Source: Croceivirga radicis
GTDB lineage: Bacteria; Bacteroidota; Bacteroidia; Flavobacteriales; Flavobacteriaceae
Direction: 5' to 3'
NCBI RefSeq assembly: GCF_002072105.2
Contig: NZ_MTBC01000002.1
Span: forward strand, 1 to 64,000
Length of the DNA: 64,000 nucleotides
The notes below the pieces were generated by a model that did no database searches, was not told the DNA's origin, and saw only the letters and a list, made by a program, of their open reading frames with translations. The translations under genes were made by a program, and so were the position numbers. Shown piece after piece: positions 11,011 through 15,597 of this stretch. Position 1 is the first letter of the stretch. The number at the start of each line of letters is the position of its first letter.

Positions 11011-13470
11011 TTATTTGGTAAGCATGCGAGTCATACGCTTAATACGGTCTGCCAGTTTTTCTGAAGATAGTTTTTCTCGTAATCGGTCTGTAATGATAGG
11101 AAAAGAAAAAGGAGTAGGTTTTTCGCAATTTTTCCAAATAATGTTTTGCTGCGCGATGCGTTCCAGCGCTAATCGCAAACGGCCTTCTTCCAATTGATGT
11201 TCAAAAGTTTCGGTAAAAGCCTGTTGAAATAAAAGATTGTCTGGTTCATAATCCCGAAAAACATCGAATAATAATTGTGAACTGCTTTGCAGGTGCTTCA
11301 TTTTTACGCCTTTCTCTGGATAACCGGTAAAAACCATTCCACTGATTACCGCAATATCACGAAACTTGCGCCTTGCCATTTCGTTGCTGTTTAGGCTCTT
11401 TTGTAAATCGGCCAATAAGTAATCTGTAGTAAACAAATCATTATCCAGTATGGCTTGTATGTCAATAGGTTTATCGCTCAACATCTCAAAACCATAATCG
11501 TTAAAGGCCAAAGAAGCGGTAATTGGACTTAATAGGCTTATACGATACGAAAGTAGGCTGCTCATGGCTTCATGTACCGCACGACCCTCGAACGGATAAA
11601 AAATATGATGATACCCGTCTCGGGTTTTAAAGGTTTCAATGAGAAATTCGTCTGGTTTGGGTACAATGCTTTCTTGACGTTGCTTGTCAAAAATAGGTTG
11701 TAGTGATTTCAATTCCGACCCCTGTAATTCGTCGGCAGCGGCTTTATAGAGTTCCTGGCGTAGCAATTCGGACATTTGGGCACTAAAACTGAGTCTACCG
11801 CCCATCCAACTGGGTACTTTGTTGGTTTTTTTATTGGAATTTCGCACGTGGGCCTGCATGCCTTTGATACGGATGAACTCCAAGTTTCTTCCCGCAAAAG
11901 TAAATACATCGCCTTGCGTTAATTTCGAAATAAAATATTCTTCTATAGAACCAATATATCCTCCTTTTTGGTATCTAACACTTATGGTAGCATCGCCTAC
12001 GATGGTCCCAATTTGAAACCGATGCCGCATAGCTACACCTCGATTGTTCACTTTAAACTTGCCGTCTGCTTCCACTTCCACCTTTTTGTACTCGTCATAG
12101 CTGCTCAGACTTTGGCTGCCCATGACCAAAAAATTTAGGAGCCATTGCCACTGGTCTTCCGTAATGCCTTGATAGCAAAAGGTCTGCTGAATTTCAGGAT
12201 AGATTTCTTCTGGGTAAAAACCATCCGAAACTGCTAAAGTGGTGAGGTATTGCAACAACACATCATAACTGTTGAGGTAGGGTAGGCGGTCTTCCACCGC
12301 ATTTTCCTTAACGGCCACCTGCAAGGCAGAAGCTTCTATCAATTCCATGGCATGTGTAGGCAAAAAGTGGATAACACTCTCTTTTCCGGGTCGGTGCCCA
12401 CTACGCCCTGCACGTTGTAAAAAACGAGCTACGCCCTTGGGGCCACCAATTTGTATTACCGTTTCTACAGGAGCAAAATCTACACCTAAATCCAAACTAG
12501 AAGTACACACCACGGCTTTTAAGCTTTCGTTACGAATGGCCTGTTCTACCCACAAGCGTGTTTCCTTGTTTAGACTGCCATGGTGCATGGCCATTTCCCC
12601 TGCGAATTCCGGATACTTTTCCAAGATTTTCTGAAACCAAATTTCGCACTGGCTACGGGTGTTGGTGAATAGTAAAGTGGTCTTACTGTTGTTGATGATG
12701 GGGACCACTTCGTCTAACAAATGCAAGCCTAAATGCCCACGCCACGGAAAGGTTTCCATGGTTTTTGGGATGATGCTTTTTACGGTAATTTTCTTTTGTA
12801 GGTTGGCGCGCACCATGACGGAATTTTCCAGTTCTGGACTTATGGGACCCAGTAACACCTGTCTGGCCTGTTCTAGATTACCAATGGTTGCCGAAATGCC
12901 CCAGATACGTAAATTTTTGCAGATGGTTTTGAGTCGGCTAAGACCCAGTTCCATTTGTACACCACGTTTGGTACCTAAAAGTTCGTGCCACTCATCTACC
13001 ACAATAGCGGAACAGCTTTTAAAGACTTTTTTATAATCCTTGGAAGACAGTAGTAATTGTAAACTTTCTGGTGTGGTAATGAGCAAATCTGGCATGGCAG
13101 TGCGTTGCTTGGCGCGCTCTTTAGTGCTGGTGTCTCCCGTGCGGATGCCTACCGTCATTTGAGTGCCTAAATCTTCCGTAATGCGTTCTGCGGATTGTTT
13201 TATTTCTTGGGAAAGGGCTCGTAATGGTGTTATCCAAATAGCCTTTAACCCCTTTTTGTGTTTGTTCTTGTAATCAGGATTTTGTTTGATGTAGTTGAGA
13301 ACGATGGGGAACCAAAGTGCGTAGGTTTTTCCGCTGCCCGTGGGTGCATTTAGCAGGCCGTGTTTGCCCGCCAAAAAGGCTTTCCAGGTCTCTTTTTGAA
13401 ACGGAAAGGGTTTCCAACCTTGCTGCTGAAACCAATCTTGGGCTATATGGAATAATTCTTTTTGGGTCAT
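11011..13470 (-). CDS. Ligase-associated DNA damage response DEXH box helicase
   Basis: An 819-residue superfamily 2 helicase of the Lhr-like group. Walker A is APTGSGKT at 42-49, the DEXH box is DEWH at 159-162, SATIGN follows as motif III, and motif VI is QRAGRSGHRPG. A long C-terminal region follows the two RecA domains. Length and motifs match the family that is genetically linked to the ATP-dependent ligase, exonuclease and PdeM. It lies downstream of the ligase but is separated from it by the DUF559 gene and a palindrome-rich spacer. Its specific role in repair is inferred from this association. Confidence 0.92.
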   Translation of the reverse strand: MTQKELFHIAQDWFQQQGWKPFPFQKETWKAFLAGKHGLLNAPTGSGKTYALWFPIVLNYIKQNPDYKNKHKKGLKAIWITPLRALSQEIKQSAERITEDLGTQMTVGIRTGDTSTKERAKQRTAMPDLLITTPESLQLLLSSKDYKKVFKSCSAIVVDEWHELLGTKRGVQMELGLSRLKTICKNLRIWGISATIGNLEQARQVLLGPISPELENSVMVRANLQKKITVKSIIPKTMETFPWRGHLGLHLLDEVVPIINNSKTTLLFTNTRSQCEIWFQKILEKYPEFAGEMAMHHGSLNKETRLWVEQAIRNESLKAVVCTSSLDLGVDFAPVETVIQIGGPKGVARFLQRAGRSGHRPGKESVIHFLPTHAMELIEASALQVAVKENAVEDRLPYLNSYDVLLQYLTTLAVSDGFYPEEIYPEIQQTFCYQGITEDQWQWLLNFLVMGSQSLSSYDEYKKVEVEADGKFKVNNRGVAMRHRFQIGTIVGDATISVRYQKGGYIGSIEEYFISKLTQGDVFTFAGRNLEFIRIKGMQAHVRNSNKKTNKVPSWMGGRLSFSAQMSELLRQELYKAAADELQGSELKSLQPIFDKQRQESIVPKPDEFLIETFKTRDGYHHIFYPFEGRAVHEAMSSLLSYRISLLSPITASLAFNDYGFEMLSDKPIDIQAILDNDLFTTDYLLADLQKSLNSNEMARRKFRDIAVISGMVFTGYPEKGVKMKHLQSSSQLLFDVFRDYEPDNLLFQQAFTETFEHQLEEGRLRLALERIAQQNIIWKNCEKPTPFSFPIITDRLREKLSSEKLADRIKRMTRMLTK

Positions 13471-13481
13471 ATCATTTTTTA

Positions 13482-13600
13482 GTTCCTTCCCTTACTTAAG
13501 GGAAGGTGAATTGATGGTAATCAATTCGGAAGGGTTGCCTTTTTCCCTTTCCGAGGTAGCTATGCTACCCCACCTTTCCCATTGCAAAGGGAAAGGAATT
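13482..13600. repeat. Palindrome-rich intergenic element next to DUF559 gene
   Basis: About 120 bases hold successive inverted repeats: CCTTCCCTT-ACTT-AAGGGAAGG (13485-13506), GAATTGAT-GGTA-ATCAATTC (13508-13527), CGGAAGGG with CCCTTTCCG (13527-13553, one bulge), GGTAGC-TAT-GCTACC (13555-13569) and CCTTTCCC-8 bases-GGGAAAGG (13573-13596). The CCTT(T)CCC motif recurs in both orientations at the two ends. This looks like a REP/BIME- or MITE-like dispersed element rather than a simple terminator. Copies elsewhere in the genome cannot be seen from here. Confidence 0.75.
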
Positions 13601-13601
13601 A

Positions 13602-13952
13602 TTATACGTTCTTAAAATTAGATTCAATTTCATTTAGTATTTGCTTCAAATCTTCAAAAACTTGCTTATTTTCAAAACGAAGTACTTTGTATCCTAGTTT
13701 CATTAAATGTTTATCTCTTAGATAATCTTGTTCTCTGTTTACCGTGTTAAAATGGATTTCTCCGTCCAATTCAATAATAATTTTCTCTTTTGCACAGTAA
13801 AAATCTACTATATAATTTTCTATTTGATGTTGTCTTCTAAATTTTCGGCCTGCTAATTGTTTTTTTTGAATGTACTTCCATAATTGTGCTTCAGCAGGGG
13901 TGAGATTTTGTCTTAGTTCTCTTCTAGAAGTAATTAGGTTTTTCTTTTTCAT
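13602..13952 (-). CDS. DUF559 domain protein (Vsr/restriction-like endonuclease fold)
   Basis: A small basic protein of 116 residues if started at the ATG at 13952 (MKKKNLITSRRELR). The open frame extends to 13994 but would overlap the ligase stop. It carries the DUF559 hallmarks LTPAEAQLWKYI, KFRRQHQIENYIVDFYC, IIIELDGEIH and VLRFENKQV. The D in YIVDF and the E-x-D in IELDG match a PD-(D/E)xK-type metal site, so nuclease activity is plausible but unproven for most of the family. It lies between the ligase and the helicase and is bounded by the palindrome-rich element. DUF559 genes are not standard members of this repair cluster, so insertion is likely. Confidence 0.85.
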   Translation of the reverse strand: MKKKNLITSRRELRQNLTPAEAQLWKYIQKKQLAGRKFRRQHQIENYIVDFYCAKEKIIIELDGEIHFNTVNREQDYLRDKHLMKLGYKVLRFENKQVFEDLKQILNEIESNFKNV

Positions 13953-13980: not shown

Positions 13981-15597
13981 CTATCCCTCCCCATTCGGAA
14001 TCAAAGCTTTTAAATCTTCCAAGCTATTGGCTTCTTCAATTTTCTTGTCTTGCCGCCAGCGTAAAATTCTTGGGAACCTTGTGGCAACACCGCTTTTGTG
14101 TCTTTTGGAAAGCGCTATGCCTTCAAAGGCAATTTCAAAGACATGATGTGGGGTTACGCTGCGTACCGGTCCAAAGCGTTCTAAGGTGTTTTTCTTTATC
14201 CAAGCGTCTACTTTTCGGAATTCGGCATCCGTAAGTCCGGAGTAGGCTTTTGCAAAGGTGACCAGCTCTTTTTCGCCATCTTCATTTTCGTCCCAAAGGG
14301 CAAAGGTATAATCAGTGAACAGGTTGCTACGCCTACCATGGCCCCTCATGGCATAAGTAAGTACGGCATCTATGGATAGTGGGTCTACCTTCCATTTCCA
14401 CCAGTCGCCCTTTTTACGGCCTACCAAATAGGGGGAAGCGTTTTTCTTTAGCATGAGGCCTTCACTGCGTTTTTCTCTAGAGGTCTCCCGTTCTGCGGCT
14501 ACTTCTTCCCATGAATTAAATGCCATTTTTTGGGATAGCAATAGAGGTGCACCCTTAGCTGAGGTTACTTGACTATGCAGTTGTTCTAGCAGCTTTCGCC
14601 TTTCTAAATAGGGTAATTCCCTGCAATCTTTACCTTCCCATTCCAACAGATCATAAGCCTTTAACACAACAGGAGTTTTTTTAAGCAAAGCCTTGGATAC
14701 TGTCTTGCGTCCTATACGGGTTTGCAAATCGTTAAACGTACCAATTTCCCCATTGGGATAGGGTAGAATTTCGCCGTCTAGAACAGTACCGTTAGGGATA
14801 GCTCCCACAAACGCTTCAAACTCCGGATATTTATCCGTTACCAATTCTTCTCCACGGCTCCAAACAAACAATTCATTGTTGCGAAGAATAACCTGAGCAC
14901 GAATGCCATCCCATTTGTGTTCAAAAGACCATTGGGTAACATCGCCTAAATCCTTGGGCTCATCCTCCAAGGCATATGCCAAATAGAAAGGATAGGGTTT
15001 GGAAAGGAAATCACTGGCCTTTTCTTCCAATACCAAATCTTGAAAACTAATGGTATTCGGGTCCCAATTCCCCATTAGTTTGTAGGCAAGGATATCTTCA
15101 TCTATACCGGTAGCCTTGGCCAAAGCTCGGGTCATTAATTTTTGACTTACCCCAATGCGGAAGCCCCCGGTAATCAGTTTGGTAAATACAAAACGACCGT
15201 AATAATCCAATTGTTTCCAATTGGCGAAGAGGTAGACTTTTTTATCAGCATCTTCCTGTTTTTTGAGCCAAATCATTTCTTGCAAAAACTGGGTCAATGA
15301 TTTGTCTGTCGCGGTTTCGTCTTGAGGTACAACCAAGGCAATGGTTTCTGCCAAATCACCAACAATATGATAGCTTTCCTCAAAAAGCCACAGCGGAATA
15401 TTCGCAAGTTCAGAAGCCCATTCGCGCAACAAAGTAGTGTTTACCGGGCGCGGAGGCCTTCTATGAGATAATATGGCGATGGTCCACACCTTGTCTTGGT
15501 CTGTAGCGGAAGCAAAATAATTAGCCAAGGCCGCTACTTTTACATTGGTCTTGTTGGTGCCGTCCAAGGTTTTTATAAGTTGGGAGAACTGCTTCAT
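13981..15597 (-). CDS. ATP-dependent DNA ligase (ligase-associated repair cluster)
   Basis: A 538-residue ATP-dependent DNA ligase that seals nicks through an enzyme-AMP intermediate. The adenylation motif EHKWDGIR places the nucleophile at K228. An N-terminal DNA-binding domain (about 1-200) precedes it. Later motifs include LDGEIL (motif III), SEGLMLKK (motif IV) and WWKWK (motif V), followed by an OB fold. This is the ligase that defines the ligase-associated damage-response module; it is distinct from the NAD-dependent replicative LigA, which is not in this window. Its start overlaps the upstream exonuclease stop by 4 bases, suggesting translational coupling. Confidence 0.93.
   Translation of the reverse strand: MKQFSQLIKTLDGTNKTNVKVAALANYFASATDQDKVWTIAILSHRRPPRPVNTTLLREWASELANIPLWLFEESYHIVGDLAETIALVVPQDETATDKSLTQFLQEMIWLKKQEDADKKVYLFANWKQLDYYGRFVFTKLITGGFRIGVSQKLMTRALAKATGIDEDILAYKLMGNWDPNTISFQDLVLEEKASDFLSKPYPFYLAYALEDEPKDLGDVTQWSFEHKWDGIRAQVILRNNELFVWSRGEELVTDKYPEFEAFVGAIPNGTVLDGEILPYPNGEIGTFNDLQTRIGRKTVSKALLKKTPVVLKAYDLLEWEGKDCRELPYLERRKLLEQLHSQVTSAKGAPLLLSQKMAFNSWEEVAAERETSREKRSEGLMLKKNASPYLVGRKKGDWWKWKVDPLSIDAVLTYAMRGHGRRSNLFTDYTFALWDENEDGEKELVTFAKAYSGLTDAEFRKVDAWIKKNTLERFGPVRSVTPHHVFEIAFEGIALSKRHKSGVATRFPRILRWRQDKKIEEANSLEDLKALIPNGEG

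Follow-up and report, generated by a model that had tools for sequence, protein, structure and literature searches.

The window analysed here (a stretch of 64,000 nucleotides of Croceivirga radicis DNA) raises the question of why a small nuclease-type gene and a run of palindromic repeats lie together between a ligase and a helicase gene, and whether the two could form a mobile unit. The gene (13602..13952, minus strand) encodes 116 aa, or 130 aa if the in-frame ATG upstream at 13994 is taken as the start. It is located between an ATP-dependent DNA ligase gene (13981..15597, minus strand, identified by Pfam and our ligase search) and an Lhr-type DEAD-box helicase gene (11011..13470, minus strand, identified by Pfam), the host neighbours that form the upstream and downstream edges of the insertion site respectively. 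The protein belongs to the Pfam family DUF559 (PF04480; E 6.6e-35, 119.7 bits against a curated cut-off of 20.6), and in an alignment of nine DUF559 proteins the residues D50, E61, D63 and H67 (window numbering) are invariant. An AlphaFold2 model from eight sequences (pLDDT 83) has a Vsr/I-Bth0305I-like PD-(D/E)XK fold, so that the description of the gene as PD-(D/E)XK-like in an earlier note on this DNA is supported by both the Pfam and the fold match. The top Foldseek match is a gonococcal endonuclease-like protein (3hrl, E 4.5e-7), the best among those with known activity is the catalytic domain of the homing endonuclease I-Bth0305I (PDB 3r3p, E 1.8e-4), and a weaker match is Vsr, the very-short-patch repair endonuclease (PDB 1cw0, E 0.06). 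It may be noted that ranks 5, 6, 11 and 12 of the Foldseek search are domains of Toxoplasma mitochondrial ribosome proteins, which are presumably RAP domains. Also, the same genome has a second, partial DUF559-domain match (L011, G000:C1:251460-251585) in a 161-aa frame; similar frames are present in several congeners and probably belong to a different protein family.

The whole element (13483-13600) lies directly 3′ of the DUF559 gene and consists of two opposed units, each having a pyrimidine arm (arm1), a short loop, an arm2 that is its reverse complement, TG, a second hairpin and arm3. Both units were identified from the sequence, an exact three-arm scan and the fold. Unit A (13483..13536, plus strand) has the order CCTTCCC..GGGAAGG-TG-AATTGAT ggta ATCAATT-C-GGAAGGG, with arm1 CCTTCCC at 13485-13491, arm2 GGGAAGG at 13500-13506 followed by TG, hairpin 2 (AATTGAT/ATCAATT) at 13509-13526 and arm3 GGAAGGG at 13528-13534. 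Unit B (13545..13600, minus strand, inverted relative to A) has the order CCTTTCCC..GGGAAAGG-TG-..GGTAGC ata GCTACC..-GGAAAGGG on the minus strand, where the hairpin arms CCTTTCCC/GGGAAAGG are at 13573-13580 and 13589-13596, hairpin 2 (GGTAGC/GCTACC) is at 13555-13569 and arm3 GGAAAGGG is the reverse complement of 13545-13552. In each unit arm3 is the mirror image of arm2 and not its complement, where A stays A or becomes T, and under the class II triplex arm rule (mirror arm3, G to G, A to A or T) both units are exact at 7 nt. Their second loops of 22-23 nt, folded as a hairpin, are longer than the 1-6 nt allowed by ITxF; the limits of the published finders are 1-6 nt for ITxF and 0-10 nt for Hoyne according to PMC4666352. 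Judged by its letters, the element is an intrastrand purine-motif DNA triplex code and is related to the BoxC/PIT/TM-ECO repeats of E. coli, with a hairpin as its linker. We call such a unit a triplex motif (TM).

The exact three-arm scan with 7-nt arms found these two units and no others in the 64-kb window, while 60 dinucleotide shuffles of the window gave one match in total (0.017 per window). Folded as single-stranded DNA, the plus strand gives five stems at -30.7 kcal/mol (z -7.0; none of 200 shuffles did as well), of which the middle one is simply the two arm3 copies paired together. The earlier note had counted five adjacent inverted repeats, which is right, and had read them as hairpins; the stems are real, but they are better read as two inverted triplex motifs. 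It had also placed the repeats on both ends of the gene, whereas in the window the element lies only on the 3′ side. No second copy of the whole element was found in the genome by blastn. As blastn is blind to copies with a different second hairpin, hairpin patterns were also scanned: the loose pattern matched three other places in the genome, all of them without the three-arm motif when read, and the second hairpin pattern matched this locus only. The element taken to be dispersed was thus found at one locus only in this genome, and a single occurrence is one of the two findings that the note itself had named as speaking against its proposal. A search of Rfam with the element gave three matches, all far under the gathering scores.

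The arm rule was found to hold across Flavobacteriaceae. In a set of elements collected blind to arm3 (found by two adjacent hairpins only; 93 distinct from 108 in 43 loci), arm3 is the mirror of arm2 at 7 of 7 positions, with A going to A or T, in 56 of the 93. On the same elements the controls gave 0 of 93 for a direct copy and 3.3% of trials for swapped arms. In the aligned arm cells, G lies opposite G 322 times out of 335, and A has A or T opposite it 215 times out of 229; as the alignment step is biased towards G on G and towards non-G on A, the informative part is that A meets A or T 215 times as against C 12 times. Readings of arm3 as a direct repeat or a reverse complement were also tried and fit worse than the mirror reading, with 118 exact mirror arms within 500 bp of DUF559 genes against 17 direct copies and 4 reverse complements. 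When one mismatch is allowed in the same range the direct reading still reaches 88 (mirror, 135), because all arms are G-rich. Hairpin 2 is nearly always different in sequence (81 of 93), and it is confirmed by TMs found from their arms only, where a stem of at least 5 bp is present in 74 of 93 distinct long loops compared with 11% of shuffled ones. The second loop measures 20-35 nt in 87 of 151 flavobacterial units. Purine-motif triplexes cannot form in RNA according to PMC4666352, and therefore the acting form, if it is a triplex, should be DNA.

The arrangement of the TMs is also regular. All 37 pairs of neighbouring TMs within 60 bp of each other, from 17 loci, are inverted (20 being convergent and 17 divergent), and the arms differ in 34 of these pairs. 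A hairpin with matches on the two strands entered this count once, so that single orientations may be wrong. The same inversion rule is seen in the five close TM-ECO pairs of E. coli described in PMC4666352, which are all inverted and combine types A plus B. Counting the window, TMs are present on both sides of the gene in 25 of the 53 loci that have any. For 34 free-standing loci with TMs on both sides, arm3 points inward on both in 24, outward on both in 3, and is mixed in 7. In one locus (L165, query 1380-1830) the stretch upstream of DUF559 appears to be duplicated ~320 bp apart, TMs included.

We then matched the TMs to the positions of DUF559 genes. A DUF559 match, partial matches included, is present in 130 of 249 Flavobacteriaceae genomes, and the family sample was made of 60 free-standing DUF559 genes of Flavobacteriaceae with up to 20 kb around each, taken in rank order among the matches listed, with the window and seven loci on short contigs or near contig ends left out. 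An exact TM with 8-nt arms lies within 1 kb in 51 of the 60 loci (52 with 7-nt arms) and is absent from this range in the other 9. By distance there are 118 exact 8-nt TMs within 500 bp and 31 at 0.5-1 kb, compared with 13 farther out (4 at 1-2 kb, 4 at 2-5 kb and 5 at 5-10 kb). The density is 1.97 per kb within 500 bp versus 0.008 at 5-10 kb, where the densities of the far bins are slightly low, since at four of the 60 loci less than 20 kb of sequence was covered. Outside the family, 20 free-standing loci from 14 genomes of other Bacteroidota families have a TM within 1 kb in 16 cases with 7-nt arms and 14 with 8-nt arms. Two sets of small loci gave similar results, with TMs at 14 of 17 (1.5-kb flanks, one of the 17 being Flavobacteriaceae) and at 13 of 18.

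For other phyla, 16 loci were chosen from 44 records with a DUF559 match in a plasmid collection (some being chromosomes filed as plasmids) for taxonomic spread, with the flanks unseen beforehand. Under a TM-ECO-like rule (9-nt arms, one mismatch per pairing), which is looser than the family rule, 13 of the 16 have a match within 1 kb, and under a stricter rule (8-nt arms, one arm3 mismatch) 11 do. There are 40 TM-like matches within 1 kb versus 15 beyond, or 1.25 versus 0.153 per kb. The matching loci are from E. coli (two), Klebsiella, Sinorhizobium, Azospirillum, Sphingomonas, Neisseria and Photobacterium; the others are from Deinococcus (two), Synechocystis (two) and Pseudanabaena (one, inside a large frame). 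The rule missed Picosynechococcus and a second Pseudanabaena, where shorter G-run repeats in the same style are seen by eye, and at the P. aeruginosa locus no TM was found either by rule or by eye. A Clostridia locus (L048) has no TM. The gonococcal locus with TMs around its gene (L176) encodes the 3hrl protein, the top fold match of the window protein, or a near copy of it (E 2.6e-60). DUF559-like matches are also present in 11 phage records. The linkage between DUF559 and the TMs is, in our judgement, practically certain to be real, and it spans four phyla, namely Bacteroidota, Pseudomonadota, Cyanobacteriota and Deinococcota. The remark in the earlier note that DUF559 genes stand beside similar repeats in other Bacteroidota is therefore confirmed (51 of 60 family loci, 16 of 20 other Bacteroidota loci), as is the tendency of the repeats to flank DUF559 that it proposed to check, which also extends to the 13 of 16 loci of other phyla found with the looser rule. 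We found no published report of a DUF559-repeat link, or of a test of the nuclease on the repeats, in the open-licence literature.

To see what the site looks like in relatives, the sequence after the ligase was compared by reading, as far as listed, at the 23 loci of the 60 genomes searched (own included) in which the ligase is present. The closest relative (G010, ligase 97% identical) has a small GIY-YIG-like frame with a different repeat in the same gap. Frames similar to it occupy the ligase-Lhr gap in four other genomes (G002, G004, G006 and G007; Pfam GIY-YIG E 5.5e-14 for G002, L055), and the gaps are short in G009, G011 and G021. In G017, which is another genus, the gap holds its own DUF559 gene with TMs on both sides; the protein is 57% identical to that of the window and the two are not sisters in the tree. 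From these gap contents and the separate position of the G017 protein, the cassette at the window site looks like a recent arrival, and the gap would appear to have been used repeatedly by nuclease-plus-repeat units. The GIY-YIG frame is accompanied by a GATTGCTTCG..CGCAATG-style repeat in five loci of congeners (L052, L053, L055, L056 and L057, the gaps of G010, G004, G002, G007 and G006), which is possibly a second, unrelated nuclease-plus-palindrome system. In the 21 ligase loci without DUF559 no TM was found in the ligase-Lhr gap, the one TM seen in L053 being across the other side of the ligase. Orthologues of the left flank of L165 that are without DUF559 have no TM either, in six genomes. 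A solitary TM persisting at an empty site was thus found in none of these places, and the empty-site check proposed in the earlier note has come out in its favour, as relatives without the gene are also without the motif.

DUF559 is also found inside other proteins. The large frames containing it are mostly in-frame insertions into conserved genes: among the 23 frames above 800 aa first scanned, 14 have a LeuRS motif, 8 a MetH motif and 1 neither. Pfam pairs DUF559 with the LeuRS editing domain in L102, B12-dependent methionine synthase in L229, HsdR in L221 and DNA methylase in L218. LeuRS itself is present in all 60 family genomes and carries the insert in 4 of them (G012, G033, G069 and G082, with frames of 1,106-1,154 aa). 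The insertion point is one hairpin, the editing hairpin, and the span between two conserved LeuRS motifs is 33-56 aa in 29 uninserted loci against 165-234 aa in 15 loci with the insert, L088 and L287 being one gene and counted once. In four LeuRS inserts (L102, L105, L096 and L099) TM arms are present at both junctions, by scan or by eye, with arm3 outermost; this outward orientation differs from that of the free-standing loci, which is mostly inward. An exact 8-nt TM was found in only 5 of the 23 large-frame loci first scanned; these could not serve as a negative control, as most are LeuRS or MetH insertions. In the phylum sample all 8 of the large frames scanned have a TM. On the protein tree the MetH inserts form one group while the LeuRS inserts need three changes, and therefore we take them to be few old events followed by patchy survival or spread. 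The LeuRS editing hairpin also holds short translated insertions resembling other dispersed palindromes in five loci (L267, L269, L278, L280 and L282), for example IASEAKQS from GTCATTGCGAGCGAAGCGAAGCAATCT in L269. In L240, DUF559 is present in an apparent LeuRS (by eye) at a second site, near the catalytic core.

On a DUF559 tree of 55 of 61 loci (fragments below 90 aa were left out, three TM-less loci being among those) the arm types follow the proteins. The GGGAGG type needs 5 changes versus 13.1 when shuffled and GGAGGAG 3 versus 6.7, while the weakest, GGAGGGG, needs 6 versus 8.4, a value that 11 of 500 shuffles also reached. Part of this agreement would follow from linked transmission by itself, but the arms stay exact although the proteins within a clade differ widely and hairpin 2 is nearly always different. 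The absence of TMs (five loci) is a single change on the tree, and therefore a DUF559 group can live without them. This free-standing group (L113, L118, L134, L141 and L155), with no triplex motif nearby, is a natural contrast set; several of its proteins have an N-terminal GA..F.(K/N)A..LR stretch.

A hairpin pattern scan over the same 249 Flavobacteriaceae genomes gave at least three TM hairpins in 23 of the 74 genomes for which a free-standing DUF559 gene was listed, compared with 2 of 119 genomes without DUF559 (p 3e-9; raw counts, with some elements counted more than once). The figure was 5 of 56 for genomes with other DUF559 matches; the group of 74 is defined by a free-standing match among the matches listed, so some of these 56 may hold weaker ones. 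The mean number of matches is 4.84 for the free-standing group versus 0.25 without DUF559. Raw counts reach 28 in G117, 48 in G177 and 34 in G274. A genome without DUF559 (G200) has 10 matches, i.e. orphan TMs, and on reading these 10, arm3 is GGATGGT in 8 and GAGGGTT in 2, both of which the A-to-T code allows. What the dispersed copies in G117, G216, G184 and G200 have in common is mostly ~50-110 nt, or a single TM and little more; longer shared stretches are of 171, 231 and 394 nt. Hairpin 2 has the letters TTCAGC in four of the G117 copies as well as at the DUF559 locus of G117. The copies in G248 (L188-L199) were considered as a case of dispersal by DUF559 and rejected: nine aligned dispersed copies form a MITE of ~264 bp around a TM pair, with ~14-bp terminal inverted repeats (TTAACGTGAATCTT), eight copies having both ends and one being without the right end. 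As the copies form a MITE with terminal repeats, a transposase probably did the copying there.

Taken as a whole, we lean towards reading the gene and the element as a copy of a small mobile nuclease cassette, in which the DUF559 enzyme acts on the motif. The architecture, the triplex code, the linkage, the presence or absence at orthologous sites and the in-frame insertions are observed here, and from there on we infer binding, cutting and copying by DUF559 at the TM. In a TM, the polypyrimidine arm is followed by a polypurine arm complementary to it, by a spacer (in this case a hairpin whose sequence is free) and by a third arm of purines, which can fold back antiparallel on the purine arm by reverse-Hoogsteen pairing, G on G-C and A or T on A-T. 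TMs often come as inverted pairs with unlike arms. The DUF559 protein would recognise the TM, probably folded while single-stranded in replication, and nick or cut at or beside it. Repair or recombination may then copy the TM-bounded segment (a TM, a TM pair or TM-DUF559) to new sites in the style of a homing endonuclease, and solitary TMs such as the E. coli BoxC/PIT could be dispersed products or relics of cassettes. Counting against this reading are the orphan TMs without DUF559, the TM-less DUF559 loci, the G248 MITE, the mixed TM orientation and the single locus in this genome. To these come the small share of the large frames first scanned that have an exact TM (5 of 23, though all 8 of the phylum sample have one), the tie of ycjD to phylogroup in E. 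coli, and the report in PMC4666352 of no mobility genes around the E. coli TMs and of an in vivo footprint that did not support a stable triplex; linked inheritance by itself would also let the arm types follow the tree.

The G248 copies, being nine copies of a ~264-bp MITE with terminal inverted repeats around a TM pair, would be expected if TMs and DUF559 were the cargo of MITEs moved by insertion-sequence transposases and the nuclease had no action on the repeat. Yet the homology of the copies in G117, G216, G184 and G200 mostly ends at or soon after the TM, the LeuRS inserts read have TM arms at the junctions with no outer repeat seen, and DUF559 as a neighbour in four phyla is left unexplained, so that we regard such a passenger role as fairly unlikely. 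No target-site duplication or outer terminal repeats were noticed by eye at the window or at the LeuRS inserts read. The I-Bth0305I match, the best of known activity, and the fixed-site insertion in conserved genes, which resembles intein and intron homing sites, would instead suit a plain homing endonuclease that targets the empty insertion site, with the TMs as inert end sequences. It does not account for the symmetry of the three arms, for arm types being tied to nuclease clades or for gene-less TM copies, and we hold it to be unlikely.

The Vsr-like fold, together with the tie of triplex repeats to instability in E. coli given in PMC4666352, would agree with DUF559 being a repair enzyme, namely a structure-specific nuclease that removes blocking triplexes or hairpins, the TMs gathering near it for other reasons. 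Such an enzyme predicts fewer TMs where the nuclease is present, but genomes with DUF559 show more. Its presence is also patchy (26 of 60 relatives and 130 of 249 family genomes, partial matches included), and the several copies per genome, the fragmentary copies and the residence in LeuRS and MetH look selfish; this housekeeping role too is unlikely. The position of the TMs immediately beside the gene, which they flank on both sides in 25 of the 53 loci having any, could mean that they are terminators, attenuators or operators of a DUF559 gene whose real job lies elsewhere. However, they can lie on either strand and far from DUF559, form inverted pairs and are also found in frame within LeuRS, which makes a regulatory role very unlikely.

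The mobile nuclease cassette may be compared with known systems. REP elements are tetranucleotide-tagged hairpins, found also as REPINs, that go with the RAYT (TnpA-REP) transposases of the Y1 HUH type. As in REP/RAYT, a small gene of nuclease type stands next to a palindromic repeat that is dispersed and forms inverted pairs, and gene-less genomes can hold orphan repeats, while the protein is of the PD-(D/E)XK (Vsr-like) type and not a Y1 HUH transposase, and the repeat is a triplex code and not a tagged hairpin. The likeness to REP-associated transposases drawn in the earlier note is thus fair in the sense of working alike, but no Y1 HUH protein is involved and the element is not multi-copy here. 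Rickettsia palindromic elements are palindromic repeats inserted in frame in protein genes, without a nuclease gene, and we know of no triplex symmetry in them; the in-frame insertion is therefore shared, unlike the nuclease gene and the triplex symmetry. With the EDxHD homing endonucleases (I-Bth0305I) the DUF559 units share the fold of the catalytic domain and the insertion into conserved genes, but they differ in having no intron or intein seen, a single small domain and triplex-repeat bounds. For the E, D, H, D active site of these enzymes, the invariant D50, E61, D63 and H67 are putative counterparts, and LeuRS alleles both with and without the insert exist. A cyanobacterial DUF559 gene was called a member of the EDxHD homing endonuclease family in 2022 (PMC9403480). 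The fold is likewise that of Vsr, from which DUF559 differs by its link to repeats, and a YcjD profile detected Vsr according to PMC1189080.

The closest relatives of the repeat are those of E. coli. TM-ECO is the older BoxC or PIT element (PMC4666352; Hoyne and Maher 2000, 2002 cited there), and E. coli was known to hold BoxC/PIT/TM repeats from the 1990s on; a count over 262 proteobacterial genomes followed, with no partner gene or function assigned to them in that paper. It also reports 23 TM-ECO sites in K-12, a stable triplex in vitro by CD and NMR, an in vivo DMS footprint that did not support a stable TM-ECO triplex, and no mobility genes seen around the E. coli TMs, and the words 'endonuclease' and 'DUF' are absent from its text. 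The pyrimidine arm, the purine arm and the second purine arm in mirror order (class II), the intergenic position and the inverted pairs of two types are common to both, unlike the often long second loop of the flavobacterial units, which is usually itself a hairpin. In E. coli the DUF559 gene, ycjD, is flanked by sapF and fabI, and 3,365 of the 5,426 complete genomes have a match to it. The gene is present in phylogroups A, B1 and C, while the others carry an efflux operon there, except ST69, which belongs to phylogroup D, and ST182, as stated in PMC12817139. We compared 58 of 60 listed rows (two plasmid-size rows were dropped) among 5,418 records with a match, and found a median of 23 TM-like places in rows with ycjD (n=37, range 14-31, the ycjD place itself counted) versus 4 in rows without it (n=21, range 2-19), a comparison that is confounded by phylogroup, to which the ycjD status is tied.

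We therefore put forward, tentatively and as something we think possible rather than probable, that DUF559 is the missing enzyme of the bacterial triplex repeats, a Vsr-fold nuclease that reads a DNA triple helix as the end of an element and carries TM, TM-pair and TM-DUF559 units to new places, in-frame sites in essential proteins among them, the E. coli BoxC repeats being products of YcjD. If true, this would be a widespread transposition or homing system with a three-stranded DNA recognition signal, and, should the folded form be what the enzyme reads, intrastrand purine triplexes could have a role in biology, namely as recognition signals. The cassette would also explain the extra nuclease domain in LeuRS and MetH of some Bacteroidota. 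DUF559, a nuclease-fold family found across phyla, and the BoxC/TM repeats would become one testable system in E. coli K-12, where (L183) ycjD ends at 2697 and a TM-ECO (a BoxC copy) starts at 2865, ~170 bp apart.
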